A DNA stretch of 51,815 nt. Origin: Bacteroidaceae bacterium (lineage in GTDB: Bacteria; Bacteroidota; Bacteroidia; Bacteroidales; Bacteroidaceae). This document shows, one piece after another, positions 7,260-46,686 of the stretch (positions are counted from its first letter, which is position 1; each line of letters begins with the position of its first letter). The notes below the pieces were generated by a model that saw only the letters and a list, made by a program, of their open reading frames with translations, had not been told where the DNA came from and searched no databases. Location: assembly GCA_017483605.1 (NCBI GenBank), contig JAFUWG010000013.1, forward strand, positions 1-51,815. The letters are read 5' to 3'. A program made the position numbers and the translations under genes.

Positions 7260-7272
7260 GTTTAAGGGGATG

Positions 7273-7372
7273 TCCCTTGTCGATACCTCGTATCGTATGA
7301 ATTCATGTCGAGGTGTTGTATGATTACAATACCCGTACACGAATTAATACGCATCGAGGTATCGACGTAGTG
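7273..7372. repeat. four-unit 23-bp-pitch module (module D)
   Basis: Four 15-bp units start at 7281, 7304, 7327 and 7350, exactly 23 bp apart. Each begins with C and ends with G. They are separated by 8-bp A/T-rich linkers (TATGAATT, TATGATTA, AATTAATA). Unit 1, CGATACCTCGTATCG, is a perfect 6-3-6 palindrome; the right half of unit 4 pairs with the left half of unit 1. The flanks TGTCC (from 7271) and GGACA (to 7376) extend the outer pairing. Units 2 and 3 are poor palindromes. It lies between the efflux-operon terminator and the TonB receptor gene. The remaining ~110 bases before that gene show no consensus promoter. Confidence 0.6.
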
Positions 7373-7486
7373 GACACGCGAGTTTCTTATTTAACATAAC
7401 AGGCGTTCTAATTAAAAAAGGCTTTCTCTTTATCTATAAATCATTCCATTACACAATAAGCAGCGAGGGTTTTCGTTATTTAGAGT

Positions 7487-9898
7487 ATGGAACTACACAT
7501 TTTTAAATATAAAATCAATAGAATCTTTTCATTGGTTACGGCTGTTTTGTTTGTGTCGATTTGTACACACGCACAGTCCGTTGTCATTAAAGGAAAAGTG
7601 ATTGACGACCAGAAATCGCCGTTGGAATTGGCACAGGTTCGCGTGGAAGGCACCGCTTTTGGTGCGGTTTGCAATCTCAAGGGCGAATATCGGATGACTT
7701 GCGAAAGTAGCGATTCTGTGGTGCTCGTTTTCTCGATGGTTGGTTATGAAACGAGAAAACGCGTGCTGAAAAATCCTGTGGATTCTGTCACGGTGAATGT
7801 CATGCTGCCGTCGCTTGGGTATGAACTGGGTGAAGTTCAAGTAACAGATATTCGACGACAAACCAGCACCATGACGGATGTGAACATGAACGACATGAAG
7901 CACATGGGCAATGCCTCGGGCGGCGGCGTGGAACGATTGATTACCAGCCAAGCAGGTGTCTCGACGCATAACGAACTTTCTTCCCAATACAATGTTCGTG
8001 GCGGTTCTTTCGACGAAAACTCCGTGTATATCAATGGTATAGAGGTCTATCGCCCGTTGCTCATCCGAAGTGGACAGCAAGAAGGACTCAGTATCATCAA
8101 CCCCGACATGGTGGAAAGCATCGGTTTCTCGGCTGGTGGATTTGAGGCAAGATATGGCGAGAAAATGTCATCTGTGCTGGACATCAAATACAAGAAAGTG
8201 AAAGGTTTTGAAGGCAGCGTGAGTGCCAGTTTGTTGGGTGCCAGTGCCTACTTGGGATATGGTACGGAAAAGTTCTCCATGACCCATGCGGTGCGATACA
8301 AAACAATGAAAAACCTGCTTGGAACGCTGGACACCAAAGGTGAATACGACCCTCGGGATTTTGATTATCAAACCTACATCAGTTGGAGTCTGAATCAGCG
8401 ATGGACCATTGACGCAATGGGTGTGATTTCTACCAACGACTACGATTTCACGCCGAGCGACAGAACCACCAAGTTTGGTACGTCGGAAGATGTCAAAGAG
8501 TTTAAGGTGTATTTTGATGGTAGCGAAAGAGATAAGTTCCATACCTATTTCGGTTCTTTTTCTGCTACTCATAACTTCAATAAACTCAATTCGTTAACCT
8601 TCAATCTCTCTGCCTTTAAAACAACTGAACGAGAAACCTACGACATTAACGGCGAATATTGGCTTCAGAACGAAGGAGTTGACGAGCCTCTCGGCATCGG
8701 CACCTATCATGAGCACGCCCGCAACCGTCTGAATGCCAGCATGGTCAATGTGGGTTTGGCAGGACAAAGCCGATTCACCAGCCACCACCTCCGTTATGGC
8801 ATGCTGATGAAGATGGAGAACGTGGACGAGAGCATGAGAGAATGGGAAATGCGTGACTCGGCAGGCTATTCCCTACCCCACATCTCCGACCGTCTCGACC
8901 TCATCTATAACCTCACGTCGATGAACGAAGAAAAGTCGAAGCACGTAGAGGCGTATCTGCAAGACACCTATCGCCGTGAATTTGAAGAAGGTAGCCTTGT
9001 CATCAACTATGGTGCACGTCTGACGCATTGGGACTGGAACAAGGAGACGCTTTTCTCTCCTCGTGCCACCATCGCTTTCACGCCTGCCAAGAACGACAAC
9101 TTGACCTATCGTTTCTCCACGGGGGTGTATTACCAAACGCCATTCTACAAGGAAATGCGAGACACGGTGACGGTGAACGGCAACACGACCGCCTATCTCA
9201 ATAAGGACATCAAATCGCAGCGAAGCATCCACTTTGTTTTGGGCATGGAATACAAGTTCCGAGTGAGTCAACGACCCTTCAAGTTTACGGCCGAAGCCTA
9301 CTACAAAGCCTTGAGCAATCTTGTCCCGTATAACATTGACAATGTGAGGGTTGTCTATTATGGCGGAAACATTGCAAAGGGTTATGCCACAGGTCTCGAC
9401 CTGAAGATATACGGTGAGTTTGTGCCAGGCACCGACTCGTGGGTCAGCGTGGGCATCATGAAGACCGAGGAGAAAATCAACGGAAGTGCCTACGTGCCTC
9501 GTCCTACCGACCAGCGACTCAATCTGGCAGTCTTCTTCAGCGACTACTTTCCCAACACCGACCGCTGGAAAGCCACCATTCAGGGACATTATGCTGGTGG
9601 ACTCCCCTTCGGTCCTCCCCACTCCGGACGTGAAAAGCAAGTCTTCCGCATGTCGAGTTACCGCCGTGTTGACCTCGGTTTGAGTTATCGTCTCCTGAAG
9701 AATGAAGACCGTCATATCTACACAGGCATCGGCAAGGCATTCCGCAATATCTGGCTGGGCATCGATGCTTTCAACATTCTCGACATCGCCAACGTAAACA
9801 GTTATTATTGGGTAACGGACATTACAAATCACCAGTATGCCGTGCCAAATTACTTGACAGGACGACAAATAAATGCACGTTTGTTGTTTGAGTTTTAA
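7487..9898 (+). CDS. TonB-dependent outer-membrane receptor with N-terminal CarboxypepD_reg-like domain
   Basis: The 803-residue protein has a signal peptide (to about CTHAQS), a carboxypeptidase-regulatory-like domain (~33-115, IKGKVIDDQKSPLELAQVRV), a plug domain (~120-225, including YNVRGGSFDENSVYING and GGFEARYGEKMSSVLDI) and a 22-strand-type barrel. It ends in Phe, as outer-membrane beta barrels do. It imports a substrate using TonB energy. There is no SusD partner beside it, so it is not a classical polysaccharide SusC; the small size points to a siderophore, vitamin or metal-chelate type receptor, but the substrate cannot be read. The 468-bp upstream spacer has no TAnnTTTG box near the start, so control by an alternative sigma factor or regulator is possible. 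Confidence 0.88.
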   Translation: MELHIFKYKINRIFSLVTAVLFVSICTHAQSVVIKGKVIDDQKSPLELAQVRVEGTAFGAVCNLKGEYRMTCESSDSVVLVFSMVGYETRKRVLKNPVDSVTVNVMLPSLGYELGEVQVTDIRRQTSTMTDVNMNDMKHMGNASGGGVERLITSQAGVSTHNELSSQYNVRGGSFDENSVYINGIEVYRPLLIRSGQQEGLSIINPDMVESIGFSAGGFEARYGEKMSSVLDIKYKKVKGFEGSVSASLLGASAYLGYGTEKFSMTHAVRYKTMKNLLGTLDTKGEYDPRDFDYQTYISWSLNQRWTIDAMGVISTNDYDFTPSDRTTKFGTSEDVKEFKVYFDGSERDKFHTYFGSFSATHNFNKLNSLTFNLSAFKTTERETYDINGEYWLQNEGVDEPLGIGTYHEHARNRLNASMVNVGLAGQSRFTSHHLRYGMLMKMENVDESMREWEMRDSAGYSLPHISDRLDLIYNLTSMNEEKSKHVEAYLQDTYRREFEEGSLVINYGARLTHWDWNKETLFSPRATIAFTPAKNDNLTYRFSTGVYYQTPFYKEMRDTVTVNGNTTAYLNKDIKSQRSIHFVLGMEYKFRVSQRPFKFTAEAYYKALSNLVPYNIDNVRVVYYGGNIAKGYATGLDLKIYGEFVPGTDSWVSVGIMKTEEKINGSAYVPRPTDQRLNLAVFFSDYFPNTDRWKATIQGHYAGGLPFGPPHSGREKQVFRMSSYRRVDLGLSYRLLKNEDRHIYTGIGKAFRNIWLGIDAFNILDIANVNSYYWVTDITNHQYAVPNYLTGRQINARLLFEF

Positions 9899-9908
9899 TA
9901 ATAATGTG

Positions 9909-9916
9909 TAAATTTG
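9909..9916 (+). promoter_or_regulatory. -7 box of the panB promoter
   Basis: TAAATTTG lies 44 bases before the panB ATG and 11 bases after the receptor stop codon. Confidence 0.55.
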
Positions 9917-9960
9917 CAACTCTCTCAACAAAAACCAATCAACAATAATCCATTGAAAGA

Positions 9961-10782
9961 ATGGCAGGATATTTAGTAGAAGACCAAAGAAAGGTCACCA
10001 CCCACAGACTTGTGCAGATGAAGGCTGAAGGCAAGAAGATTGCCATGCTGACATCTTATGATTACACTACGGCAAGCATCACCGATGCTGCCGGAATTGA
10101 TGTCATCCTTGTTGGCGACTCAGCCAGCAATGTGATGGCAGGTAACTGGACCACCATCCCGATTACTCTCGACCAGATGATTTATCATGCTAAAAGCGTG
10201 GTGCGTGGCGTGAAGCGTGCCCTCGTGGTGTGCGACATGCCTTTCGGCACTTACCAGGTGAACGAGACAGAGGCTGTCACCAACGCTGTCCGCATCATGA
10301 AGGAGACCCATTGCGACGCTTTGAAACTGGAAGGCGGCGTGGAAATCATCCCTGCGGTTAGAAAGATTCTCGATGCCGGTATTCCTATCTGCGGTCACCT
10401 CGGCTTGACTCCTCAGGCCATCAACAAGTTCGGCACTTACACCGTCCGTGCAAAGGAAGAGGCAGAAGCCAAGAAACTGGTCAGCGATGCTCATGCGTTG
10501 GAAGAGGCAGGCTGCTTTGCCGTGGTGCTGGAGAAGATTCCCGCCAAACTCGCCGCACAGGTAACCAAAGAACTTCGCATTCCCGTGATTGGTATCGGAG
10601 CAGGCGGTGCTTGCGACGGACAGGTGCTCGTCGTTGCCGACATGCTTGGCATGACACGTGGTTTCTCTCCAAAATTCCTGCGTCGCTATGCCGACCTCAA
10701 CACCATCATGACCGATGCCATTGGCCATTATGTGGAGGACGTGAAAGAAGGAAACTTCCCGAACGAGAACGAACAATATTAA
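9961..10782 (+). CDS. panB: 3-methyl-2-oxobutanoate hydroxymethyltransferase
   Basis: PanB transfers a hydroxymethyl group from 5,10-methylene-tetrahydrofolate to alpha-ketoisovalerate to give ketopantoate, the first committed step of pantothenate (and CoA) synthesis, in the cytosol. The 273 residues match the family length. Landmarks are [12 protein letters not shown] (metal-binding Asp and substrate loop), [17 protein letters not shown] and the C-terminal VIGIGAG. The gene has its own likely promoter at 9909. Pgk follows after 83 bases without a clear promoter, so both may share a transcript. Confidence 0.96.
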
Positions 10783-10865
10783 AGATCATGCGTTATCACG
10801 CTGTGACGACATCCACGACATGACAATAAAAAACCAATAAAAACAACTTAAAAAACTAAAACATT

Positions 10866-12134
10866 ATGACAATTAATGAGTACAACTTTGCCGGTAAGAA
10901 GGCAATCGTGCGTGTAGATTTCAACGTGCCAATCCAGAATGGTGTTATCACAGACGACACCCGCATCCGTGGTGCAGTTCCTACGCTCAAACTCATCCTT
11001 GAGAAAGGTGGCGCCCTCATCATCATGTCACACATGGGCAAGCCAAAGGGCAAGGTGAAGCCAGAACTCTCTCTGAAGCAGATTGTTCCTGCTGTCAGCG
11101 AGGCTCTTGGTGTTCCTGTACAGTTTGCTGACGACTGCCAGAAGGCTGACGCCCAGGCTGCTGCTCTGAAGCCAGGTGAAGTGCTCCTGCTCGAGAACCT
11201 CCGCTACTATCCTGAAGAGGAAGGCAAGCCAGTAGGTGTTGAGAAAGGCACTCCAGAGTACGACGAGGCAAAGAAGGCAATGAAGGCAAGCCAGAAGGAA
11301 TTTGCCAAGAAACTCGCTTCTTACGCTGACTGCTGGGTGATGGATGCCTTCGGTACGGCTCACCGCAAGCATGCTTCTACCGCTGTCATCGCTGACTACT
11401 TCGACAAGAACGACGTGATGCTTGGTCTCCTCATGGAGAAGGAAGTGCAGGCTGTTGACAACGTGCTCAACAACATCAAGCGTCCATTCGTTGCCATCAT
11501 GGGTGGTTCAAAGGTTTCCACCAAGATTGGCATCATCGAGAACCTGCTCGGCAAGGTGGACAAACTCATCCTCTGCGGTGGTATGACTTACACCTTCATG
11601 AAGGCTCACGGTGGCGAAATCGGCAACTCTATCGTTGAGTTGGACAAACTCGATGTGGCTCTTGGCGTGGAAGAACTCGCAAAGAAGAACGGTGTTGAAC
11701 TCGTTCTCGGTGAGGATTCTGTTTGCTGCACTGGCTACGACTTCTCTACATTCGCTGTGAAGCCAGGTGCTGAAATCAAGACATTCCCATCTAACGCCAT
11801 CGAAGACGGTTGGGACGGTCTCGATATCGGTCCTAAGAGCCGCGAGAAGTTCACCAAGGCTATCGAAGGTGCCAAGACCATCCTCTGGAACGGTCCTGCT
11901 GGCTGCTTCGAGTGCGAAGACTTCACCGCTGGTTCTCGTGCCGTAGGTGAGGCTGTTGCCAAGGCTACTCAGGAAGGTGCCTTCTCCCTCATCGGTGGTG
12001 GCGACTCTGTAGCATGTGTCAATAAGTTCGGTCTTGCCGACAAGGTATCTTACATCTCTACAGGTGGTGGTGCCCTCCTCGAAGCCATCGAGGGTAAGGT
12101 GCTCCCAGGCATCGCAGCCGTAAAGGGCGAGTAA
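10866..12134 (+). CDS. pgk: phosphoglycerate kinase
   Basis: Pgk interconverts 1,3-bisphosphoglycerate plus ADP with 3-phosphoglycerate plus ATP in glycolysis. The 422-residue product is slightly longer than the ~390-400 typical of bacteria. Substrate-binding landmarks are [13 protein letters not shown] and SHMGKPKG near the N-terminus; NGPAGCFE and GGGDSVACV near the C-terminus bind the nucleotide. An extra stretch near residues 115-145 ([19 protein letters not shown]) accounts for the extra length. The codon choice is strongly biased (few rare codons, uniform C/T-ending preference), as expected for a highly expressed gene. A strong terminator follows. Confidence 0.97.
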
Positions 12135-12165
12135 TAATTACACGTTAACTCATCACATGGAAAGA

Positions 12166-12206
12166 GGGGAGGTGCTGCATTTCGCAACACCTCCCCTCCC
12201 CTTTTC
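12166..12206 (+). terminator. intrinsic terminator of pgk
   Basis: A G/C-rich stem (GGGGAGGTG pairing with CACCTCCCC) with a short loop is followed by CCTTTTCTT. The run is mixed C/T rather than pure T, but the stem is very stable. Confidence 0.8.
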
Positions 12207-12303
12207 TTCATGTGCTCTCCCTCGTCGAACGCTATGTGTGTCTCGTACAGTATTGCAGAAGATGAAGGCTGCTTTGTACTACAAAAACGATGACCTCAAT
12301 GCT

Positions 12304-12407
12304 TCAAAAGTGGTCTGAGTCAGACCGCCTCGGTGGTGTGACTCAGACCACTCGGGCGGTGTGAGTCACACCACTTTTGAGGTCTCGAGTGTGTCATTTT
12401 GTCCTAT
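12304..12407. repeat. triple-palindrome module, 23-bp pitch (module A, copy 1 of the A/B family)
   Basis: Three 15-bp palindromes start at 12312, 12335 and 12358: GGTCTGAGTCAGACC, GGTGTGACTCAGACC and GGTGTGAGTCACACC. They are separated by 8-bp linkers (GCCTCGGT, ACTCGGGC) and enclosed by complementary flanks AAAAGT and ACTTTT. The middle unit combines the left half of unit 3 with the right half of unit 1. A 104-bp copy lies at 28931-29034, matching at about 92 positions by hand alignment with no gaps, including 3' flank ending in TTTTGTCCTAT. The rest of the 12135-12565 spacer holds the pgk terminator and the next promoter. Confidence 0.88.
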
Positions 12408-12523
12408 GCGAGCATTCAAAAGAAGCGTCTTTGAGCGATGGGGGTGAAAGGTCAATGAAAGGCAAATTTGCGACTTATTTGGAAATTATCAAAGATTTTC
12501 ACGGGAGATAAGAAAAATATTTG

Positions 12524-12531
12524 TAAATTTG
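12524..12531 (+). promoter_or_regulatory. -7 box of the binding-lipoprotein promoter
   Basis: TAAATTTG, 34 bases before the ATG at 12566, matches the Bacteroidota -7 element. Confidence 0.6.
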
Positions 12532-12565
12532 CAACCTTATAGAGAAATAACAGATAGAAATTAAG

Positions 12566-13527: not shown

Positions 13528-15732
13528 ATGGATTTCAACGAGATAAAGCAAGAATTAAAAGAGAACAACCTGGCACTCGCCTTCCCTGCCATCCGCCAGA
13601 AAGCGGCCAGCGTCGGCAACTGGGAGGTGGAAGAACAGGTGGAAAGGTTGTGGACGACCTATCAGCAAATGATTCAGTTCATGCTGAATGGGGTGAAAGA
13701 CGCTCAGTCGGGACAGATTCGCGAGAAGATTTGTCGCGACTTGCAGTTTGCCACGGCTCGACTGGAACGCTTTGAACGACTGAAGAACAATGCCAGCGAG
13801 AAGTATGTCAGTTCTCGCAAAGAGTTGAAGAATGTGCCGTCGTTTGAGTATCTGGTCAACCTCATCGAGTCCATCTCGACAGAAATCACCCAACTGAACA
13901 ACGACGAATTGATGCGTGATTCTATCCGTCAGCATCGGATGGAGCAGTTGGAGAAAGACCACGAGGCAGCCCTCCTGCAACTCTTCAACTGGACCTGGAC
14001 AAGCGAGGTGTGGCAAAATGGCGATGTGGATCAAGCCAATCGTCTGATTTTTTCCGACCACATCAGCAGTTTCGACAAGGCGGTGTTTGTGAGTGCGGTG
14101 ACCCTCTCGCTGATGGAGTTTATCGACCTCGCCAAAATCTTCTTCCTGCTGGATTGCTATCTGGTGGAGGATGTGCAGATTTCGCAACGGGCGTTGGTGG
14201 GCTTCGTGCTGGTGACGTACCTTTTCTATGTTCAGTTTGACGACAGCAAGGAACTGCAAGACAGGTTGGCGATTTATCGTGAAGACCCTGCTTTTGTGCA
14301 TGACACATACGCCACGATGATGCAACTGCAACTCTGCTGCACCACCGACCAAGTGACCTCGAAAATGCGTGACGACATCATCCCGACGCTGATGCGGGGA
14401 CAGATGCTCAAACGCGTCCACTTGGAAGACCCTGTTGACCTGGATGTGTTTATCAAGAACGGCGAAAATCCCGAGTGGGTTGCTCAGGCGAACGTGGATA
14501 AGAAACTGCGTGAGTTGGCAAACCTGCAACTCGACGGAGCCGACATCTACTACTCCTCTTTCGCCATGCTGAAAGGGCATTCCTTCTTCGGGCAAATGCC
14601 CCATTGGTTCTATCCGTTCTCGTTCAACGACATTCTGGTGCCAGAAATCAAGCAGGTGCTCAGCGGCAAGATTGGCCGGCTGATGAAGTTGATGTTGGGT
14701 GGTGCCCCCTTCTGCAATAGCGACAAATATTCCTTGTGCTTCACGTTCAACTCGTTAGGCTCGATGGGCGAAGCGGCTGTGGAGGCACAAATCAATCAGC
14801 AACTGGACGGCGAGAACATCGACGAACTGATTGAAGACGTCGAAAAGAAGCAGCCACAGAAGTCGGACATCCGTCGTCAGTACATCTTCGACCTCTATCG
14901 CTTCTTCTATTCCTATCCCTACAAGTTGCAGTTCTGCAATCCGTTCGAATCGTTGAAGAAAAGCCCCGTCACTCCTTTCCGAAACTCGTTGTTTGCACAG
15001 ACGTTGACCGACTCGAAAGAGGACATCATGCAATATGCCGACTTCTTGATGCACAAAACGTTCTATGGGTCGGCTTTGTTCCTGTTTGAAAGGCTTGACA
15101 AGAACGAGTTTGAGGAGAAATATGCCAGCCTTTGGCAGAAGATTGGGTTCTGCCACCAGAAACTTTCGCAAACCGAAAATGCCATTAAGGCATACCACGT
15201 GGCGAACACCTTGAAACCCAACTCCAAGTGGACGCTCAGCCATTTGGCTTCTCTTTATTTTAACGGTGATTTGTATGAGGAGGCTGCCGCCTGTTATGCA
15301 GACTTGATAGCGATAGAGCCTGAAAATCAACGCTATCTGCTCCACGCTTCGCAGGCTTTGATACGAACCGGCCGCCATGAGGATGCCCAGCAGTATCTCT
15401 ACAAGGCACTTTACTTGGACGAGGATTCCATGCAAGTCAAACTGTTGCTGAGTTGGTGCCTGATAGTCAATGGACAAAAAGACAAGGCGGCAAAGTATAT
15501 CCTTGAGATTCAATCGGAAGACCCTCAGAACGAAGAGGCACAAATCTTGTTCGCCCTCATCCTGCTGGTGGACGGAAATGCACACGAGGCATACCATCGG
15601 CTCAAGTCCATCCTCACCGACGAGAACAAGATGGACGTGGAAGATAAACTCAGGACATTGGTTTATCACAAGATGATTGACGACACCACAGAGATTCTCT
15701 TTACCGATGCCCTCATGCTCAACATCGACTAA
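13528..15732 (+). CDS. large TPR-repeat protein paired with a helicase gene
   Basis: I use the ATG at 13528 (734 residues); a TTG at 13519 is also in frame. The first ~500 residues are mainly helical and match no domain I recognise. Residues ~510-720 contain tetratricopeptide repeats, for example WQKIGFCHQKLSQTENAIKAY, TLSHLASLYFNGDLYEEAAACY and RYLLHASQALIRTGRHEDAQQY. There is no signal peptide, so the protein is probably cytosolic and a protein-protein scaffold. Its stop is 7 bases before the start of an IGHMBP2-like helicase gene, so the two are almost certainly co-transcribed and may act together. Function is otherwise unknown. Confidence 0.8.
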   Translation: MDFNEIKQELKENNLALAFPAIRQKAASVGNWEVEEQVERLWTTYQQMIQFMLNGVKDAQSGQIREKICRDLQFATARLERFERLKNNASEKYVSSRKELKNVPSFEYLVNLIESISTEITQLNNDELMRDSIRQHRMEQLEKDHEAALLQLFNWTWTSEVWQNGDVDQANRLIFSDHISSFDKAVFVSAVTLSLMEFIDLAKIFFLLDCYLVEDVQISQRALVGFVLVTYLFYVQFDDSKELQDRLAIYREDPAFVHDTYATMMQLQLCCTTDQVTSKMRDDIIPTLMRGQMLKRVHLEDPVDLDVFIKNGENPEWVAQANVDKKLRELANLQLDGADIYYSSFAMLKGHSFFGQMPHWFYPFSFNDILVPEIKQVLSGKIGRLMKLMLGGAPFCNSDKYSLCFTFNSLGSMGEAAVEAQINQQLDGENIDELIEDVEKKQPQKSDIRRQYIFDLYRFFYSYPYKLQFCNPFESLKKSPVTPFRNSLFAQTLTDSKEDIMQYADFLMHKTFYGSALFLFERLDKNEFEEKYASLWQKIGFCHQKLSQTENAIKAYHVANTLKPNSKWTLSHLASLYFNGDLYEEAAACYADLIAIEPENQRYLLHASQALIRTGRHEDAQQYLYKALYLDEDSMQVKLLLSWCLIVNGQKDKAAKYILEIQSEDPQNEEAQILFALILLVDGNAHEAYHRLKSILTDENKMDVEDKLRTLVYHKMIDDTTEILFTDALMLNID

Positions 15733-15739
15733 ACTCGCC

Positions 15740-17683
15740 ATGCAAAATAGCACTCTTTATCTGCAACGACTCCGAAGCCTTCTCCAGATGGAATATGACG
15801 CCGAGAAGGAAGAGTTTCGCATCCAATCGGAGAAGATGGGCATCAAGCGGAAAATCCATCGAGGCATCTGTTGGTATCCGATTGAGGCTGGCCGAAGTTA
15901 TTACAACTCGCTGAATCAGTTGGTGGTGGAAATCACCCGAAAGGAGCATGACGAAGCAGATGAGGACATCGAACATCTGTTTGAATACGGGAAGCCTGTC
16001 CAGTTTTTCAACACTCCAACCGCCGAAGAGGGAGGGCATTATTTCCCCTTTTCATCGACGGTTTCCTATGTGGACGGCGACCGCATGGTGGTCACCCTAC
16101 CCTCCTCTCAAGCCCTCATCGACTTGCAGAATGCTGACCATCTGGGCGTGCAACTCTACTTCGACGAGACATCCTACAAGACGATGTTTCATGCCCTCGA
16201 CGATGCCATCAATGCCAAGAACAACCGTCTAGCCGACCTTCGAGACATCTTTGCGGGGGTGCAGAAACCGCAGAAACGCACTTTCGCCCCGATGCTCTTC
16301 CCGTGGCTGAACAAGACCCAAGAGGCGGCGGTGAACGAAGTGCTGTGGGCAAAGGATGTGGAGGTGGTGCACGGCCCTCCTGGAACGGGCAAGACGACCA
16401 CACTGGTGGAAGCCATCTACGAGACCTTGCACCGAGAGACGCAAGTGATGGTGTGTGCTCAGAGCAACATGGCGGTTGATTGGATTAGCGAGAAACTGGT
16501 GGATCATGGGGTGCCCGTTCTTCGCATCGGCAACCCCTCACGCGTGAACGACAAGATGCTCTCTTTCACCTACGAACGCAAGTTTGAGAGCCATCCCGAC
16601 TATCCCGAACTGTGGAGCATCCGCAAGACCATCCGCCAGATGAAGGAGAACCGCAAGCGTGGCGACAACATCCACCAGAAGATTGCCCGTCTGCGTGACC
16701 GAGCACAGGAGATTGAGATGCGTATCACGGCACAACTTTTCGACGAAGCCCGTGTGGTGGCTTGCACGCTGGTCGGTTCAGCCAACAAGGTGCTGGTGCG
16801 ACAGAAGTTCTCCACCTTATTTATAGACGAGGCGGCACAGGCACTCGAACCAGCCTGTTGGATTGCCATTCGTCGGGCCTCGCGAGTCATCTTGGCAGGC
16901 GACCATCAGCAGTTGCCGCCTACCATCAAGTGCTACGAAGCCATGAAGCAAGGGCTCGGAAAGACGCTGATGGAACGCATCGTGGAGAATCAGCCCGCAG
17001 CCGTCACCCTGCTCAAAGTGCAGTACCGCATGAACGATGCCATCATGCAGTTCTCTTCCGACTGGTTCTATGGCGGACAGGTGGAGTCGGATGCCAGCGT
17101 GAAACATCGTTCCGTTCTCGACTTTGAACATCCCATCCAATGGATTGACGGCAACGAGATTCAGCAGCAAGTGAACGAGGAATTGGAGAAACAAGGCACG
17201 CCAGATGAGAAACTGGACATTGACTTCACCGAACAATTCATCGGAGAGAATCACGGACGCATCAACAAGGCAGAAGCGGAGTTGGTTTTGACAACTCTCA
17301 GAAACTATATTGAGAAAATCGGCAAAGAACGTTTTCTCGAAGAACGGCTTGATGTGGGCATCATCTCCCCCTACAAGGTGCAGACGCAATATCTTCGCCA
17401 GCAAATCCGCAAGCGTGAGGAGTTTCGTCCCTTCCGACAGGTCATCAGCGTCAACACCGTCGATGGCTTTCAGGGGCAAGAGCGTGACATCATCATGATT
17501 AGCCTCGTGCGCTGCAACGACAGCGGTCAAATCGGCTTCCTGTCCGACCTTCGCCGCATGAATGTCGCCATGACGCGTGCCCGCATGAAACTCATCGTTT
17601 TTGGTGACAAGGCTACTCTCCAGCACCATGCGTTCTATCGCAAATTGATTCAGTATGTCGAAAAGACACAAGAAGAATCGTAG
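15740..17683 (+). CDS. IGHMBP2/UPF1-like superfamily 1 helicase
   Basis: From the ATG at 15740 the product is 647 residues. All SF1 helicase motifs are visible: Walker A GPPGTGKTT (~212), motif Ia VCAQSNMAVDWI, motif II LFIDEAAQALEP (~362), motif III LAGDHQQLPPT, motif IV region LKVQYRMN, motif V VDGFQGQERDII and motif VI NVAMTRARMKL. The DEAA/TRAR pattern places it with SMUBP2/UPF1 5'-3' helicases (SF1B) acting on DNA or RNA. A longer in-frame start at 15677 would overlap the TPR gene and has no support. The stop codon lies inside the first palindrome of an intergenic module (17680-17740). It pairs with the upstream TPR protein; the role (repair, RNA surveillance or other) is unknown. Confidence 0.9.
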   Translation: MQNSTLYLQRLRSLLQMEYDAEKEEFRIQSEKMGIKRKIHRGICWYPIEAGRSYYNSLNQLVVEITRKEHDEADEDIEHLFEYGKPVQFFNTPTAEEGGHYFPFSSTVSYVDGDRMVVTLPSSQALIDLQNADHLGVQLYFDETSYKTMFHALDDAINAKNNRLADLRDIFAGVQKPQKRTFAPMLFPWLNKTQEAAVNEVLWAKDVEVVHGPPGTGKTTTLVEAIYETLHRETQVMVCAQSNMAVDWISEKLVDHGVPVLRIGNPSRVNDKMLSFTYERKFESHPDYPELWSIRKTIRQMKENRKRGDNIHQKIARLRDRAQEIEMRITAQLFDEARVVACTLVGSANKVLVRQKFSTLFIDEAAQALEPACWIAIRRASRVILAGDHQQLPPTIKCYEAMKQGLGKTLMERIVENQPAAVTLLKVQYRMNDAIMQFSSDWFYGGQVESDASVKHRSVLDFEHPIQWIDGNEIQQQVNEELEKQGTPDEKLDIDFTEQFIGENHGRINKAEAELVLTTLRNYIEKIGKERFLEERLDVGIISPYKVQTQYLRQQIRKREEFRPFRQVISVNTVDGFQGQERDIIMISLVRCNDSGQIGFLSDLRRMNVAMTRARMKLIVFGDKATLQHHAFYRKLIQYVEKTQEES

Positions 17684-17747
17684 CCCTCGACTACGGTGTG
17701 GCGTACCCCTCGGGTACGGCTCGGTGTACCCGAGGGGTACGATTCTT
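17673..17747. repeat. triple-palindrome module, 23-bp pitch (module C)
   Basis: Three 15-bp units start at 17680, 17703 and 17726: GTAGCCCTCGACTAC, GTACCCCTCGGGTAC and GTACCCGAGGGGTAC. Unit 1 has one mismatch; units 2 and 3 are perfect 6-3-6 palindromes and exact reverse complements of each other. The linkers are 8 bp (GGTGTGGC, GGCTCGGT). The flanks AAGAATC and GATTCTT are complementary, as in module A. The first unit includes the helicase stop codon. Confidence 0.85.
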
Positions 17748-17755: not shown

Positions 17756-17794
17756 AAAAAAGAGGAAAACCAATCGTAGTTTTCCTCTTTTTCA
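17756..17794. terminator. bidirectional terminator between the helicase gene and the tRNA cluster
   Basis: A stem AAGAGGAAAAC pairing with GTTTTCCTCTT around an 8-base loop is flanked by A-run and T-run. It can end the minus-strand tRNA transcript and the plus-strand helicase transcript. Confidence 0.82.
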
Positions 17795-17801
17795 TTCTTA
17801 G

Positions 17802-17873
17802 TAGCGCCTACGAGAATCGAACTCGTGTTCCATGCGTGAGAGGCATGTGTCCTAGCCGCTAGACGAAAGCGCC
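17802..17873 (-). tRNA. tRNA-Glu(CUC), copy 1
   Basis: The minus strand folds as a 72-base tRNA. The acceptor GGCGCTT pairs with AGGCGCT (with G-U pairs), the D arm contains TCGTCTAGCGGCTAGGAC, the anticodon loop is CTCTCAC (anticodon CTC), and the T loop is TTCGATT. It is identical to the copy at 17918. The encoded 3' tail is CTA rather than CCA, so CCA must be added or repaired. Confidence 0.92.
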
Positions 17874-17917
17874 ATATCATGTACCCATTTACGATGTACA
17901 ATTGTGTCATTTCTTGG

Positions 17918-17989
17918 TAGCGCCTACGAGAATCGAACTCGTGTTCCATGCGTGAGAGGCATGTGTCCTAGCCGCTAGACGAAAGCGCC
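17918..17989 (-). tRNA. tRNA-Glu(CUC), copy 2
   Basis: Identical in all 72 bases to the downstream copy, with anticodon CTC. Here the CCA tail is encoded (17915-17917 on the complementary strand). It is transcribed after tRNA-Ser and before copy 1, with 44 bases between the two Glu genes. Confidence 0.93.
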
Positions 17990-28930: not shown

Positions 28931-29034
28931 TCAAAAGTGGTCTGAGTCAGACCGCTTCGGTGGTGTGACTCAGACCACCAAGGCGGTGTGACTCACACCA
29001 CTTCAGAGGTGACGAGCGTGCAATTTTGTCCTAT
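28931..29034. repeat. triple-palindrome module, 23-bp pitch (module B, copy 2 of the A/B family)
   Basis: Units start at 28939, 28962 and 28985: GGTCTGAGTCAGACC, GGTGTGACTCAGACC and GGTGTGACTCACACC, with 8-bp linkers GCTTCGGT and ACCAAGGC. Same strand and same length as the copy at 12304-12407, with no indels over 104 bp. Most differences fall in linker 2 and the 3' flank. It lies between tRNA-His and the convergent DUF2809 gene. Confidence 0.88.
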
Positions 29035-33611: not shown

Positions 33612-33614
33612 ATC

Positions 33615-40725: not shown

Positions 40726-40771
40726 CTTAACAAGAGACGATTAGACAAATAACAATAAAAGCATTTACATT

Positions 40772-41446
40772 ATGGAATTGACAATGTTTGAGCGATTACT
40801 GCAACTTCCGCTTTTTCAGGGGTTAAGTACCCCCGAAATATCGGATGTCATGGCTCATGTTCGTCTCGATTTTGTCAATTATCATGCTGGCGACGAGATT
40901 GTTTTGCAGGGAGAATCCTGTCAAAACCTCTTGTTCATTATTGGCGGAAATTTGTCAACCATCTATACAGATCCGAAAGGACGCTTCAGATTTGCAGAAA
41001 AACTTCCTCCTATCGGCGTGCTGGAACCGTATAACCTATTTGGCATGTACCAAAAATATTCGCGGACATACCTGTTTGATACAGAAGGAAGCACCTTGTC
41101 GATTGAGAAACAAGTGTTGGTGAATCAACTCATGAAGAGTCAAATCGTGAAGATAAACTTCCTCAACATTACTTGTAACCGTTACCAGCAGACGCTGAAA
41201 ACGCTTTGGGAAATGCCCGATGAAACCGTTAAGAAGAAGATTATCAAGTTTATTTACTCCTACTCATCTGTTCCGCGGGGCAAGAAGGAACTGCAAATCA
41301 AGATGACAGACCTTGCCGACATCATTCATGAGACAAGACTGAATGTGTCGAAAGCATTGAATGAGATGCAAGAGAAAAAACTGGTCACCTTGCAGAGAGG
41401 CGGTTTTGTCATTCCAGAAATTCAGAATTTGAAAACATCTAAATAA
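40772..41446 (+). CDS. Crp/Fnr-family transcriptional regulator
   Basis: The 224-residue protein has a cyclic-nucleotide-binding-like beta roll (~10-120; LFQGLSTPEISDVM and GDEIVLQGESCQNLLFIIGG) and a C-terminal winged helix (~150-220) with the HTH MTDLADIIHETRLNVSKALNEMQ. The Fnr cysteine set for an iron-sulfur cluster is absent, as is a complete cAMP pocket, so the ligand is unknown. It ends 4 bases before the M3 peptidase gene and is likely cotranscribed with it. Confidence 0.9.
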   Translation: MELTMFERLLQLPLFQGLSTPEISDVMAHVRLDFVNYHAGDEIVLQGESCQNLLFIIGGNLSTIYTDPKGRFRFAEKLPPIGVLEPYNLFGMYQKYSRTYLFDTEGSTLSIEKQVLVNQLMKSQIVKINFLNITCNRYQQTLKTLWEMPDETVKKKIIKFIYSYSSVPRGKKELQIKMTDLADIIHETRLNVSKALNEMQEKKLVTLQRGGFVIPEIQNLKTSK

Positions 41447-41450
41447 TGAT

Positions 41451-43511
41451 ATGAATCCATTTTTTACGACATACAAATATATTCCTTTCGACCGTATTGC
41501 TGAGGCTGATTACGAGCCTGCCATCATGAAAGGAATAGAAGAGGAAGACCGAGAGATTGATGCGATTGTCAACAATCCTGAACCTCCGACGTTTGAGAAC
41601 ACGATTGAAGCCCTCGAATGCACAGGGGAACTGTTGGGTAAGGTAACAGAGGTCTTTTTCAATCTTTTGAGTGCTGAGACCACAGACTTTCTCGATGAGT
41701 TGGCACAAAAGATTTCACCCGTCTTGTCGGAACACTCTAATAACATCACACTTAACGAACAACTTTTCAAGCGAGTTAAAGCCGTGTATGATGACCATGC
41801 ATCAGACCAATTTGCACGACTCTCTACGGAACAAACAACCCTCTTGAAAAACTCCTATGAAGGTTTTGTTCGTAATGGTGCAAATCTGCCGGACGAGAAA
41901 AAGGCACAATTACGAAAGATTTCTGCAGAACTGGGCGTTTTATCGCTTCAATTCTCGCAAAACAAACTGAAAGACACCAACGATTTCATCTTGCAAACCA
42001 CCGATGAAAACGACCTCTTGGGGCTTCCTGAGAGTGCAGTGGACTTGGCACGCCAGACGGCAAAAGAAAAAGAGATGGAGGGATGGGTCTTTACACTACA
42101 AGCCCCGTCATACACCCCATTCCTCACCTACTCTTCCCGGCGTGAGTTAAGAAAGCAAATGTACTTGGCATACAATACGTTGTGTACACACGACAACGAT
42201 TGCAACAATGTTGACATCGTCGGAAAGATAGTCAATCTTCATCGCGAGATGGCACAACTGTTGGGTTTCAAGACCTATGCTGATTATGCCTTGGCACGTC
42301 GAATGGCAGAAAAATCAGAGCATGTGTACAGTCTTCTGAACTCTCTCATCAACGCATACATGCCCACAGCCAAAGCAGAAGTAGAGGAAGTGAAAGCCCT
42401 TTATTACAAGGAAGAAAATATTGACGAAACCACGCTATCAGAAGATGACGAGCGTCGTTTTAAGCCTTGGGACTTTTCCTATTATGCAAATAAATTGAAG
42501 GAAAACAAGTTCTACATCAACAGCGAAATGCTTCGACCATACCTTGAACTGTCTAAAGTGAAAAAAGGTGTGTTCGGATTGGCGGCCCAACTATATGGCA
42601 TCACATTCAGAAGAAACACGGAAGCACCCGTTTATCATCCTGATGTAGAAGTCTATGATGTCATCGACAAGGACGGGACGTTTCTTGCCCTCTTCTATTG
42701 CGATTTCCACCCTCGTGCATCGAAGAAGTCAGGCGCCTGGATGACCTCATTCAAGGAGCAATGGAAAGAGAAAGACGGCACCAACTCTCGACCGCAAGTT
42801 TCTATCGTGATGAATCTGTCAAAGCCAACAGACGAGAAGCCAGCCTTATTGACGTTGGGCGAGGTGGAGACATTCCTGCATGAGTTCGGGCATTCACTCC
42901 ATGGCATGTTTGCCAACACAACATACCGCTCCCTCTCAGGAACAAACGTCTATTGGGATTTTGTGGAGTTGCCGTCGCAGTTCATGGAGAATTTTGCGAT
43001 AGAAAAAGACTTCCTGTCCACTTTTGCGACCCACTATCAGACAGGCGAGCCTTTGCCACAGGAACTGATAGACAGAATTGTTGCAAGCCGTAACTTCAAC
43101 GCCGCTTATGCCTGTATGCGTCAAGTTAGTTTTGGACTTCTAGACATGGCTTTTTATACGCTCTCCACACCTTTCGACGCCGACTTAATGCAGTTTGAAG
43201 AGGAGGCATGGAAAGCCACACGGATTCTTCCGAAAGTGGACGGAATGTGTATGACGACTCAGTTCTCTCACATTATGGCAGGAGGCTATTCTGCTGGCTA
43301 TTATAGTTACAAATGGGCAGAAGTGCTTGATGCCGATGCCTTTTCGTTGTTCAAGGAACGTGGCATTTTTGACAAAGAGACCGCACAAAGTTTCCGTGAC
43401 AACATCCTTTCACGAGGAGGAACAGAACATCCGATGACTCTCTACAAACGCTTTAGAGGACAAGAGCCCACGATTGATGCTCTACTCCGTCGAAATGGTA
43501 TAAAACATTAA
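41451..43511 (+). CDS. M3-family metallopeptidase (oligopeptidase A / Dcp-like)
   Basis: The 686-residue zinc peptidase has the HExxH motif in TFLHEFGHSLHGMF (~474-487), with the third ligand in the downstream segment FVELPSQFMENFAIE. The long helical N-terminal half and GGYSAGYYSYKWAEVLDADAF near the end are family features. There is no signal peptide, so it is probably cytosolic, degrading short peptides. It follows the Crp/Fnr-like regulator by 4 bases. Confidence 0.95.
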   Translation: MNPFFTTYKYIPFDRIAEADYEPAIMKGIEEEDREIDAIVNNPEPPTFENTIEALECTGELLGKVTEVFFNLLSAETTDFLDELAQKISPVLSEHSNNITLNEQLFKRVKAVYDDHASDQFARLSTEQTTLLKNSYEGFVRNGANLPDEKKAQLRKISAELGVLSLQFSQNKLKDTNDFILQTTDENDLLGLPESAVDLARQTAKEKEMEGWVFTLQAPSYTPFLTYSSRRELRKQMYLAYNTLCTHDNDCNNVDIVGKIVNLHREMAQLLGFKTYADYALARRMAEKSEHVYSLLNSLINAYMPTAKAEVEEVKALYYKEENIDETTLSEDDERRFKPWDFSYYANKLKENKFYINSEMLRPYLELSKVKKGVFGLAAQLYGITFRRNTEAPVYHPDVEVYDVIDKDGTFLALFYCDFHPRASKKSGAWMTSFKEQWKEKDGTNSRPQVSIVMNLSKPTDEKPALLTLGEVETFLHEFGHSLHGMFANTTYRSLSGTNVYWDFVELPSQFMENFAIEKDFLSTFATHYQTGEPLPQELIDRIVASRNFNAAYACMRQVSFGLLDMAFYTLSTPFDADLMQFEEEAWKATRILPKVDGMCMTTQFSHIMAGGYSAGYYSYKWAEVLDADAFSLFKERGIFDKETAQSFRDNILSRGGTEHPMTLYKRFRGQEPTIDALLRRNGIKH

Positions 43512-43544
43512 TGTCACCTCATATCTGCTCAACATCTATCATCA

Positions 43545-43985
43545 ATGAGAAAAGCATTCAACATATTATCACTTTTATTGTTGGTTCTGACATTTTCCTC
43601 TTGTTCGCTCGAAGACGACCTTGACGAAATCTTCTATGGAAAAACGTGGTACATGAATGGTGCGACCATCAACGGCATGAAACTCAATAGCGATGTCAAG
43701 AACTTTTATACAGACACCGGCACTAACGCTTACTATGTCTCTTTCTCGTCCGGCACATTTCAGGGAGCCCTTTCTGCAGGTGTTACTTTCTCTGGCACAT
43801 GGACAGCCGACGGGAAAAAGCACACGATAGCATTGACCGTCACTCAGAAGCCCAATGCGGATACTGCATTTGACAAACAGATATACAACATTCTCTCGGC
43901 TGTCACCTCATACGAAAGTGGTGCCGAATTCCTTTTGCTGAAGGAAGATGGAGACAATCAAATCTTTTTCGGAAGTTCCAGATAA
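43545..43985 (+). CDS. small lipocalin-like lipoprotein (DUF4847-like)
   Basis: A 146-residue product with a lipoprotein signal ending at LTFSSC (Cys20), an acidic linker (LEDDLDEIF), and a compact beta-rich domain (GKTWYMNGATINGMKLNSD; VTFSGTWTADGKKHTIALTV). It resembles the DUF4847 lipocalin-like family of Bacteroidota. Function is unknown. It lies between the M3 peptidase and dCMP deaminase genes on the same strand. Confidence 0.7.
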   Translation: MRKAFNILSLLLLVLTFSSCSLEDDLDEIFYGKTWYMNGATINGMKLNSDVKNFYTDTGTNAYYVSFSSGTFQGALSAGVTFSGTWTADGKKHTIALTVTQKPNADTAFDKQIYNILSAVTSYESGAEFLLLKEDGDNQIFFGSSR

Positions 43986-44009
43986 CAACAAATACATATC
44001 GATAAAACT

Positions 44010-44435
44010 ATGCAAGAAGACAAACAATACAACCTTGACTGCCGCTATGTGCGTATGGCTCGCATCTGGGCAGAGAACTCTTACTGCCAACGCCGCCAAG
44101 TTGGGGCTTTGGTCGTAAAGAATAAAGCCATCATTTCCGATGGTTACAACGGAACACCTTCTGGATTTGAGAACGTGTGTGAGGATGAGAACAACGTGAC
44201 CAAACCTTATGTGCTTCATGCAGAGGCTAACGCCATCACCAAATTGGCTCGGTCGCACAATTCCAGCGATGGAGCCACCCTCTACATCACGGCATCGCCT
44301 TGTATTGAGTGTGCAAAATTGATTATTCAGGCAGGCATCAAGCGTGTGGTTTATTCCGAGAAATACCGACTGGAGGACGGCTTGAATCTGCTGAAGCGTG
44401 CAGGTATTGAGGTCGAATACATAAATCCAGAATAA
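44010..44435 (+). CDS. deoxycytidylate (dCMP) deaminase-family protein
   Basis: The 141-residue zinc-dependent deaminase has the HAE motif in VLHAEANAI (~70) and the PCxxC motif in ASPCIECAKLIIQAG. It also has the dCMP-deaminase hallmarks SYCQRRQVGALVVK and SDGYNGTPSGF near the N-terminus. It should convert dCMP to dUMP for dTMP synthesis. It is followed by the S41 peptidase gene after 19 bases. Confidence 0.94.
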   Translation: MQEDKQYNLDCRYVRMARIWAENSYCQRRQVGALVVKNKAIISDGYNGTPSGFENVCEDENNVTKPYVLHAEANAITKLARSHNSSDGATLYITASPCIECAKLIIQAGIKRVVYSEKYRLEDGLNLLKRAGIEVEYINPE

Positions 44436-44454
44436 AACGTCGAATTTTACCATT

Positions 44455-46182
44455 ATGAGCAATAACATAAATCGTAACAACCGCTGGATGCCGCTCATCA
44501 TTGCCGCGAGCATCATCGCTGGTATCATCATTGGCACCTTCTTTGCCAACCGCTTTGCAGGCAATCGACTGAACATCATCAACACTTCATCTAACAAATT
44601 AAATGATTTGCTTCATATTATTGATGACCAATATGTTGATACAGTCGATATAGCCAACATCGTAGAGCAATCCATGCCAAAGATATTGGAGGAGTTAGAC
44701 CCTCATTCAAGTTATATTTCCGCCAAAGACGCCAAAACAGCCAACGACGACTTGAGAGGCTCTTTTAGCGGCGTTGGTGTTCAGTTTGTCATTCGTGAAG
44801 ACACGGTTCGCATCACGGGCATCATCAAGGGCGGTCCTTCTGAAAAGGTCGGTATTTTGGCAGGCGACAAGATTGTATCTATCGATGACAAGCCTTATGT
44901 CGGCGAGGAAGTGACCAATGAAGAAACGATGCATCGCCTCAAGGGTGAGAAAGGTACCAAGGTAAAAATCGGCGTGCTGCGTCACGGACAGGAAAAGCCC
45001 ATTTCCTTCTCGGTTGTCAGAGGCGACATTCCTGTGAAGAGCGTTGACGCCACCTACATGATTAACAAGGAGTTGGGATATGTTAAGATCAAGAATTTCG
45101 GCGAAACCACCTACCCTGAACTGCTCACCTCTTTTGCCGAGTTGGAAGCCGAGGGCTTCAAGGGACTTGTGATAGACCTGAGAGGTAATGGTGGCGGCTA
45201 TATGGCAGTTGCCATCCAGATGGTCAACGAGTTTCTGCCCAAGAATCGACTGATTGTTTACACCCAAGGTCGCAAGTCTCGACGCGAGGAATATCGCAGC
45301 GACGGACGCGGCTCCTATCAGAATCTTCCTCTGATTGTGTTGATTGACGAAACAAGTGCTTCTGCTTCAGAAATCTTTGCCGGAGCCATTCAGGACAATG
45401 ATCGTGGTATTGTCATCGGACGTCGCTCTTTCGGAAAAGGCCTTGTGCAATATCCTGTCGAATTCTCAGATGGCTCTCGCATCAATCTGACCATCGCACG
45501 CTATTATACTCCTTCAGGGCGTTGTATCCAGAAACCATACGTGAAGGGGCAGCCAGAAGAGTATGAAATGGACTTGATTACCCGATATGAGAGAGGCGAA
45601 TTTTTCAGCCAAGACAGCATTCACCAGACGGGTGAAAAGTATTATACGAGCATCGGCCGTGTGGTTTATGGAGGTGGTGGCATCATGCCCGACTACTTTG
45701 TGGCAGAAGACACGACGGCCCTCACACCTTATTACTCCGAGTGTGTCACAAAGGGAACCATCGCACAGTTCTGTTTCAAGTACACAGACGACAATCGCGA
45801 GAAACTTCAGCAGTACACAAATGCGGCTGAAATGGAGAAGTATCTACGCAAACAGAGCGTGGTTGACCTGTTTATACGTTATGCCGATTCGAACGGGATT
45901 ACACGTCGCAACAACATGATTCTCAAGTCGCAGCATCTCTTCGAGCAAGCCATCTATGGCAGCATCATCTATAATATGCTCGATATGAACGACTACGTGC
46001 AATATCTCAATCGTGACGACCCAACCATCAAGGAGGCAATAGAACTTTTCAACGAAAAACGTACAAAACCGATACTCGATGAACAAACAGGAACTCAGAA
46101 CGCTGATTCGTCAAAGAAAAAAGCAGCATTCCACCGAGGAACTTTCGGCATCAAGCCAAAGACTCTCACGTTTACTGCTTGA
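44455..46182 (+). CDS. S41-family C-terminal processing peptidase
   Basis: The 575-residue protease has an N-terminal membrane anchor (~12-32, MPLIIAASIIAGIIIGTFFA), a PDZ domain (~90-185; IRITGIIKGGPSEKVGILAGD-type core) and the S41 catalytic domain with Ser in SASASEIFAG and Lys in RSFGKGLVQ, the Ser-Lys dyad of CtpA/Prc proteases. It acts in the periplasm on C-termini of envelope proteins. The last 34 codons overlap the next gene by 104 bases in another frame, and end in a basic tail (KKKAAFHRGTFGIKPKTL). Confidence 0.94.
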   Translation: MSNNINRNNRWMPLIIAASIIAGIIIGTFFANRFAGNRLNIINTSSNKLNDLLHIIDDQYVDTVDIANIVEQSMPKILEELDPHSSYISAKDAKTANDDLRGSFSGVGVQFVIREDTVRITGIIKGGPSEKVGILAGDKIVSIDDKPYVGEEVTNEETMHRLKGEKGTKVKIGVLRHGQEKPISFSVVRGDIPVKSVDATYMINKELGYVKIKNFGETTYPELLTSFAELEAEGFKGLVIDLRGNGGGYMAVAIQMVNEFLPKNRLIVYTQGRKSRREEYRSDGRGSYQNLPLIVLIDETSASASEIFAGAIQDNDRGIVIGRRSFGKGLVQYPVEFSDGSRINLTIARYYTPSGRCIQKPYVKGQPEEYEMDLITRYERGEFFSQDSIHQTGEKYYTSIGRVVYGGGGIMPDYFVAEDTTALTPYYSECVTKGTIAQFCFKYTDDNREKLQQYTNAAEMEKYLRKQSVVDLFIRYADSNGITRRNNMILKSQHLFEQAIYGSIIYNMLDMNDYVQYLNRDDPTIKEAIELFNEKRTKPILDEQTGTQNADSSKKKAAFHRGTFGIKPKTLTFTA

Positions 46183-46615
46183 CCGCATACAGAAGGAGGA
46201 TGGCATCCGTACCATCCTCCTTTACCATTCCATGCCCGATGAAGTAGAGACCCATCAATTGATAAAAAATCTCCATTCCATCGGCAAAAAGATACTCTTG
46301 CCCACCATTGTCGGCGACGAACTTGAGTTGCATGAATACCTCGATGAAACCGCCTTTTCCACATCGGCTCATTTCAGCATTCAAGAATCGACAGGCCCTC
46401 TCTTCACCAATTATGCGGCGATTGACCTTGCCATCATTCCGGGCATGGCGTTCACGCCACAAGGCGACCGATTGGGCAGAGGGAAAGGCTACTACGATCG
46501 CCTGCTTCCCAAACTCCAATGTCCCCTCATCGGTTTGGCTTTTTCATTCCAAGTAGTGGATGCCATACCAAGCGAGGTTCATGACGTGCGAATGACAGAA
46601 ATCGTTAGTGGCTGA
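46079..46615 (+). CDS. 5-formyltetrahydrofolate cyclo-ligase
   Basis: The 178-residue enzyme converts 5-formyl-THF to 5,10-methenyl-THF using ATP. Landmarks are LRTLIRQRKKQ at the N-terminus, LLYHSMPDEVETHQLI, and the signature DRLGRGKGYYDRLL near the C-terminus. The start at 46079 lies within the S41 peptidase gene; the N-terminal helix encoded in the overlap is conserved in the family, so the overlap is real. It complements folD in recycling folates. Confidence 0.94.
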   Translation: MNKQELRTLIRQRKKQHSTEELSASSQRLSRLLLDRIQKEDGIRTILLYHSMPDEVETHQLIKNLHSIGKKILLPTIVGDELELHEYLDETAFSTSAHFSIQESTGPLFTNYAAIDLAIIPGMAFTPQGDRLGRGKGYYDRLLPKLQCPLIGLAFSFQVVDAIPSEVHDVRMTEIVSG

Positions 46616-46617
46616 AG

Positions 46618-46686
46618 GCAAATACCCTGAGCCGTGCAGGGTAATTATCGTGAGCCGCATAAGGTAATTGCCCTAAGCGGCAGAAG
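46618..46686. repeat. 23-bp-pitch tandem module (module E)
   Basis: Three 15-bp units start at 46626, 46649 and 46672: CCTGAGCCGTGCAGG, CGTGAGCCGCATAAG and CCTAAGCGGCAGAAG. The 8-bp linkers are GTAATTAT and GTAATTGC, with a related 8-mer GCAAATAC before unit 1. The units match one another at 10-11 of 15 positions. Palindromy is weak except in unit 1. It starts 3 bases after the cyclo-ligase stop. Confidence 0.6.

Follow-up and report, generated by a model that had tools for sequence, protein, structure and literature searches.

Short intergenic arrays of palindromic units, repeated at an almost invariant distance, are dispersed over the genome of an uncultured Bacteroidaceae bacterium. We describe them starting from one stretch of its DNA, contig JAFUWG010000013.1 (C49) of the GenBank assembly GCA_017483605.1, positions 1 to 51,815. 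This whole stretch of 51,815 nucleotides (nt) is called the window below. The window contains five modules with a period of 23 bp, and four of them belong to three dispersed families, designated A, B and C. The geometry of the arrays is better conserved than their sequence, i.e., the constant distance outlasts the sequence. We tentatively regard the modules as dispersed triple palindromic sites for a putative oligomeric DNA-binding protein, copied in the manner of miniature inverted-repeat transposable elements (MITEs), and consider this reading close to an even call. Families B and C carry the argument together with families F, G and T, which are absent from the window; the contribution of family A is weakened.

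The modules of the window are as follows (no strand is assigned to any of them):

7279..7366: family A element (module 7281), an 88-bp near-palindrome with its centre at 7322.5 and weaker dyads at 7299.5 and 7345.5
12292..12384: family B element (module 12312), units 12312-12326, 12335-12349 and 12358-12372, like GGTSTGASTCASACC, with 8-bp linkers
17679..17741: family C element (module 17680), units 17680-17694, 17703-17717 and 17726-17740, like GTACCCNNNGGGTAC, with 8-bp linkers
28931..29010: second family B element (module 28939), units 28939-28953, 28962-28976 and 28985-28999
46626..46686: single-copy 23-bp direct repeat (module 46626), three non-palindromic units

A preliminary description of the window had reported five modules. 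All five are present, and the description rather understated the case.

The genome of the window (G000, hereafter the own genome) comprises 3.06 Mb in 56 contigs and is 81.5% complete. It represents an uncultured rumen-type lineage of Bacteroidaceae/Prevotellaceae, and the phosphoglycerate kinase of the window is nearest to those of uncultured rumen and hindgut genomes of these families. The related genomes bear other G numbers, and L numbers denote individual loci in the own or related genomes. Genes were called with a custom codon-usage script.

Spacing and linkers

Family C is represented by 65 arrays. All 65 have exactly three units, and all 130 spacings equal 23 bp, although the linkers comprise 93 different sequences. 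The array parser tolerated spacings of 21-27 bp. The related genomes were fetched as the top BLAST matches, i.e., not at random, and the absence of irregular arrays is therefore partly conditioned on the search.

Among 130 family B arrays, 122 have three units. After removal of poor units the spacings include 154 of 23 bp and 115 of 24 bp, and these two values are distributed by genome. All 86 spacings in the own genome are 23 bp long (29 distinct linkers), and the same pitch is found in G007 (31/32), G032 (17/18), G035 (6/6) and G023 (12/14). In five other genomes all 83 spacings are 24 bp long, with 43 distinct linkers (G010 16/16, G011 14/14, G013 19/19, G034 20/20, G036 14/14); the pitch of 24 bp also occurs in G030 (12/12), G014 (4/4) and G021 (9/10). 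Thus 13 of 14 genomes keep a uniform or nearly uniform pitch; the exception is G003, whose two arrays show both values (3 and 1). Three orthologous places allow a direct comparison: the G032 arrays have 23 bp (one of them is mixed 23/24), those of G010 or G011 have 24 bp, and the linkers differ in style as well. The suggestion that geometry is kept over sequence, originally drawn from five modules, is borne out by both families, and unit spacing is conserved in related species.

The linkers of family C keep a class of base at each column, with both bases of the class common (e.g., pyrimidine in 58 of 65 arrays, then purine in 59, pyrimidine in 58 and purine in 63). The pattern RVYRYRBY, which was derived from the same linkers, matches 87 of 130 linkers versus 1.1 expected randomly. 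By class, the flank columns -2 and 62 are divided 39:26 and 41:24. Transitions outnumber transversions 2.4-fold in the linker core, whereas the ratio of the two is about 0.5 in the flanks.

Palindromic units in the window

We scored units as palindromes with 6-bp arms and a 3-bp centre (6-3-6) at a pitch of 23. Modules 12312, 17680 and 28939 each have 17 of 18 arm positions matched. The runner-up site of the window scores 14, and the maxima of 20 shuffled windows range from 12 to 14. Four sites of the window score at least 14 at pitch 23, and at most one does so at any other pitch from 15 to 44. The palindromic units originally reported at 12312 and 17680 are thus well supported, and pitch-23 palindromes are enriched over shuffles of whole stretches (rather than of intergenic DNA alone). 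Modules 12312 and 28939, which had been taken for separate modules, are 88% identical over 104 nt and are two copies of one family. The outer arms of the 12312 element are complementary (GACCTCA..AAAAGT and ACTTTTGAGGTC).

The remaining two modules agree with the original account in part. In the phase proposed for module 7281, the units have 6, 3, 1 and 3 of 6 arm matches; the family is mainly one long palindrome with weaker 23-bp dyads. Among 27 copies of family A, 25 match at least 6 of 11 positions around 7322.5, while 14 and 12 copies do so at the dyads 7299.5 and 7345.5, which lie 23 bp from the centre. Off-register centres 14 bp to either side reach 9/27 and 11/27, close to these values. 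Because the 23-bp dyads barely exceed the off-register centres, family A is only partly supported as a member of the 23-bp class. Module 46626 is a real 23-bp direct repeat, with 27 of 38 positions matched, which was not equalled in 20 shuffles; it occurs once in the genome and is not palindromic (score 10/18). At the gathering threshold, Rfam gave no match at the modules.

Families in the genome and in the genus

BLAST found dispersed copies of families A, B and C, in agreement with the proposal of copying within the genome. In the own genome 42 family B arrays were parsed, and three more were found when the sites of a 400 kb sample were read; this count is a lower bound, as 40 of 99 candidates were scored. 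The own genome also has 26 parsed family C arrays and 37 copies of family A, some of them degenerate. Three further families were recognised there: F, with units like GACCACGTCGTGGTC at pitch 23 (18 places); G, with units GATGTGCCCCACATC at pitch 23 (3 places); and T, which is AT-rich, with pitch 21 (about 38 places). The inspected copies of family T (L439-L448) have 4-6 units and long palindromic ends, with CTTTTGCCGCAGG..TCTTAAAAC in several of them. Family T has probably been amplified recently, since 18 of its places are 99% identical to the query. All families together amount to about 165 arrays in the own genome, again a lower bound because of family B. The likeness of arrays within a species is supported.

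The 400 kb sample consisted of 20 stretches of 20 kb, taken at round coordinates on large contigs named by earlier matches. At the higher threshold it contains 11 triple dyads at pitch 23, seven at pitch 21 and 0-3 at other pitches from 16 to 60. Five of the seven pitch-21 places belong to family T, and the remaining two, both AT-rich, may have arisen by chance. At the lower threshold there are 14 places at pitch 23 and none in three shuffles. Reading assigned all 14 to known families: eight to B, four to F and one each to G and C. The unit words of these families are unrelated, yet the pitch is the same. Pitches 21, 37 and 39 are also prominent at this threshold (10, 9 and 8 places), of which 5, 3 and 4, respectively, belong to family T. 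At L449 (from G000:C22:30344 onward) two families adjoin, each with three units, and the 23-bp register continues from one to the other without a break.

Matches were found in 14 of 61 genomes for family B, 14 of 61 for C, 2 of 61 for A and 5 of 37 for F, all in the genus of the window. Single arrays of other sequence with a pitch of 21-22 were seen in related taxa (L205, L203, L175, L420). By eye, another such array, of the 21-23-bp pitch class, lies downstream of phosphoglycerate kinase in a related taxon (L165).

Orthologous loci and rearrangements

Arrays persist at orthologous places across species. For example, at a place shared by G000 (L033) and G002 (L333) the units have one difference in 45 positions; linker 1 has six transitions, and linker 2 has one transition and one transversion. 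Nineteen genomes have an orthologue of the helicase gene that precedes the family C array of the window, and four of them (G000, G002, G003, G014) carry family C at its 3' end. In G002, G003 and G014 the array lies about 33 nt past the stop codon. By eye, G019 has a different array with a period of 22-23 bp at this end (L368).

Rearrangements of arrays and differences in their presence were also seen. One family C array of about 60 bp is inverted in place between orthologous flanks (L338 in G002 and L345 in G014; identity 0.87 direct and 1.00 inverted), and L111 and L115 differ by a flip of one unit centre. Inversions at palindromes have reportedly been described in plastids (PMC2903610). At one orthologous gap a family B array is present in G000 (L017) and missing from G003 and G014. 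At another orthologous place family C (L245/L269) corresponds to family B (L279); this coincidence may be due to chance, because the loci were picked for carrying arrays.

Position relative to genes

The features adjoining the arrays of the window that are used below are:

10866..12134, + strand: gene for phosphoglycerate kinase, preceding the first family B element
15677..17683, + strand: AAA_11/AAA_12 helicase gene, upstream of the family C array
17757..17792, + strand: hairpin followed by a T tract, resembling an intrinsic terminator, behind the family C array (read directly)

The TAG stop codon of the helicase gene (17681-17683) comes from the first unit of the family C array. The terminator-like hairpin behind the array suggests that this array may lie in the 3' untranslated region (UTR) of the helicase transcript. 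Tandem, nearly identical tRNA-Glu genes (99% over 81 nt) adjoin the same array at 17801-17989.

The preliminary description placed all modules downstream of a gene. This is a family trait for C and A. A stop codon lies no more than 30 bp away from 34/59 arrays of family C (P 8e-23) and 14/35 of family A (P 1e-7), versus 7.8% of control placements. The corresponding numbers for family B are 5/42 in the own genome (P 0.22) and 18/86 elsewhere (P 9e-5). The orientation of neighbouring genes was classified for 53/65 arrays of C, 35/42 of own B, 79/88 of other B and 29/36 of A, the remainder lying at locus edges or within open reading frame calls. Gaps between divergent genes contain 2/53 arrays of C, 0/29 of A, 5/35 of own B and 16/79 of other B. 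The expectation is 11.5% from stretches of the own genome and 29% from stretches of the genus; relative to the former, C (P 0.047) and A (P 0.029) are depleted. Scanning 41 proteins encoded before family C arrays (41 of the 47 listed genes, excluding near-duplicates and one short open reading frame) revealed no Pfam family in more than two of them.

Ends and mobility

Families B, F and T have long complementary arms, which give their copying a MITE-like appearance; family C lacks them, and its common ends are limited to a few flanking bases. Matches of family B in the own genome are 88-98% identical. A search of the 150 bp to either side revealed a motif like GAGGNTGTGTCAAAAT next to 27/186 arrays (three of them with the motif on both sides) versus 3/186 control positions, and CCTCAAAA or its mirror lies close to an end of 97/189 arrays versus 2/189 control positions. 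Among nine pairs of GAGGNTGTGTCAAAAT ends in the fetched DNA no autonomous parent element was recognised. By eye, no clear target duplication was found at the six short pairs; the three longer ones, left untranslated, resemble chance pairings.

The own genome has one match to the Y1 transposase family PF01797, in L382 (G000:C9:91500-96500; gene near 2041-2500). The gene is flanked by repeats of its own, of the GCCCTGAAGGGGCGA type, resembling repetitive extragenic palindromic (REP) elements and unlike the arrays both by eye and by pattern. None of the A, B and C motifs was found near it.

Operators of phages or plasmids were also considered and rejected. Two-unit patterns of families B and C, searched exactly, had no match in viral contigs (the phage collection was outside this search), and BLAST of one family B element against plasmids gave none. 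An exact family B pattern had no match in genome contigs either.

Base pairing within arrays

Covariation was assessed against column composition in distinct three-unit arrays (65 of C, 38 of own B, 21 of other 23-bp B, 50 of 24-bp B). Pairing inside units shows no covariation in family C (z 1.7), own B (z 0.8) and 24-bp B (z -0.4). Pairing across the array is mixed. Between units 1 and 3 z is 0.6 in 24-bp B and -5.8 in own B; between the outer arms it is 1.3 in C, 2.6 in other 23-bp B and -3.5 in own B. Given the lack of covariation inside units in three of the four sets and the mixed pairing across arrays, we read the units as double-stranded DNA sites embedded in an element that is palindromic as a whole.

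Interpretation

Of the two mechanisms initially offered, sites for an oligomeric protein and a row of tight hairpins, the former is better supported; the latter lacks support, since three of the four sets show no pairing inside units beyond what column composition predicts. Lambda-type operators OR and OL comprise three palindromic sites of about 17 bp with centres about 23-24 bp apart, on which adjacent dimers bind. The palindromic unit words, their distance of about two turns of the helix, the linkers conserved by class and the usual number of three units are most simply explained by a comparable platform for three dimers. An array would usually offer three sites about two turns apart (21, 23 or 24 bp), which a single sequence-specific DNA-binding protein would occupy as three adjacent dimers in contact. 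Each family would be the site set of one protein or one specificity. Arrays would spread through the genome in the manner of MITEs, as short palindromes, and then remain in place for long, and selection would act on the unit words and most of all on the spacing. Conservation of spacing above sequence suggests a protein that measures DNA. We infer binding, cooperativity, the copying mechanism and any influence of the arrays on transcription or on the structure of the chromosome from these regularities.

Several results weigh against this interpretation. The protein itself is a postulated one, and the binding of three dimers is proposed from the layout. Family A fits the 23-bp register weakly, and family B has no bias towards gene ends in the own genome, its placement there being near chance. 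Pairing signals exist at the level of the array: three-hairpin pairing in other 23-bp B (21 arrays; z = 3.2), pairing of units 1 and 3 in C (z 4.7) and in other 23-bp B (z 4.0), and outer-arm pairing in 24-bp B (z 6.5). In one orthologous pair of family C (L031 in G000, L358 in G002) units differ at 8/45 positions and linkers at 5/16, four of these being transversions. The class conservation of linkers may partly reflect shared ancestry and transition bias. A few B arrays and the inspected T arrays have 4-6 units, and the recent amplification of family B fits selfish copying. Finally, 388 kb from 12 members of the genus without A or B matches (including G017, which has one C and one F match) contain no pitch-23 place, and the class is therefore not universal in the genus.

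The arrays could be purely selfish palindromes of the MITE or REP kind, copied by a putative transposase and having no host function, with the ruler being the binding layout of this enzyme or a by-product of palindrome replication. We consider this a possible but less probable account. The many near-identical copies (18 places of T at 99%, B at 88-98%), the long complementary outer arms, the two end motifs in excess over controls and the presence of the L017 array in only one of three genomes speak for it. It is opposed by family C, with its lack of extended common ends, its diverse linkers and its persistence at orthologous places, and by the end pairs in fetched DNA, where neither a mobilising enzyme nor a clear target duplication was seen. 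In addition, selfish copying alone leaves unexplained why linkers change in sequence and not in length. Another account, REP elements spread by a REP-associated tyrosine transposase (RAYT, a Y1 transposase), is disfavoured and is the least probable of the explanations. The arrays are indeed dispersed intergenic palindromes, and the own genome has one PF01797 gene. The RAYT link raised in the preliminary description is nevertheless not supported, given the different repeats around that gene and five B-rich relatives (G007, G010, G011, G013, G014; 83-91% complete) that gave no PF01797 match (six other B-bearing genomes were outside this search).

A role as RNA elements, i.e., arrays transcribed in 3' UTRs that fold into hairpins and terminate or stabilise transcripts, appears unlikely. 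The excess of family C just behind stop codons and the terminator-like hairpin following its copy in the window would agree with it. Three of four sets lack covariation within units, divergent genes flank part of the family B arrays, and Rfam did not recognise the modules. Terminator-like hairpins accompany 12/47 family C arrays (overlapping the array in eight) versus 36/162 other gene ends, and since these frequencies are about the same, arrays as substitutes for terminators are rejected. Neutral tandem duplication with palindrome-driven template switching, which would keep units alike and spacing constant without selection, is very improbable. The flip in L111/L115 and the inversion in L338/L345 show that such processes act. 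Drift, however, should alter linker length, which changed in 0/130 cases in C and 0/83 in 24-bp B, and the single pitch throughout a genome would stay unexplained.

For the triple protein sites that we prefer, a broader, rather doubtful extension would be a protein family with a built-in ruler, assembling as three dimers on triplets. The arrays would follow a 1-bp shift of the ruler, and several pairs of protein and array per genome would form a chromosome-wide architecture or mark gene ends. Sequence is the usual criterion by which dispersed repeats of bacteria are recognised. The arrays, in contrast, are best conserved in a distance, which persists through changes of linkers and unit words and differs by 1 bp between species. 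If a protein reads this distance, the arrays would be a natural system for the co-evolution of a protein with more than 100 scattered sites; they might also represent a new level at which rumen bacteria organise their chromosomes.

Comparison with known systems

The lambda operators form one locus per phage beside promoters, whereas the arrays have well over 100 chromosomal copies and those of family C lie just behind genes. Like the arrays, REP elements and the bacterial interspersed mosaic elements (BIMEs) associated with RAYTs are short dispersed intergenic palindromes; as far as the consulted part of the source describes them, they lack a fixed three-unit 23-bp ruler (PMC3733652), and no matching RAYT was found here. 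The parts of the open-licence literature that we consulted (including PMC3733652, PMC5771137 and PMC10969869) yielded no description of such a layout.

Of the published elements found, the BrickBuilt MITE of Porphyromonas gingivalis comes closest. According to the portions consulted, it is intergenic and dispersed, with 19 copies in one strain, and contains a 23-nt tandem repeat of one sequence in 1 to 22.8 spacerless direct copies; it has a leader and a tail with IS5-like ends and occupies loci shared among strains (PMC4596501). The arrays likewise belong to Bacteroidales, are dispersed between genes and occupy shared loci. The 23-nt period is common to BrickBuilt and to families C, F, G and, in some species, B (24 bp elsewhere), while that of T is 21. 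Unlike BrickBuilt as described there, the arrays have palindromic units, spacers, usually three units and several families. Unlike its variable number of bricks, exactly three units are found in 65/65 arrays of C and 122/130 of B, with 4-6 in T. Three GAGAC-type ends of the BrickBuilt/IS5-like terminal repeats (GAGACCTTTGCA and kin) were found on both sides in 0/186 arrays of B and C, and an ISPg3-type end in 1/186. We class the arrays apart from BrickBuilt because these ends are absent, because its repeat number varies and because its main text contains no word with the stem "palindrom" (PMC4596501). We accordingly place the arrays among the dispersed repeats between genes as a variant of their own.

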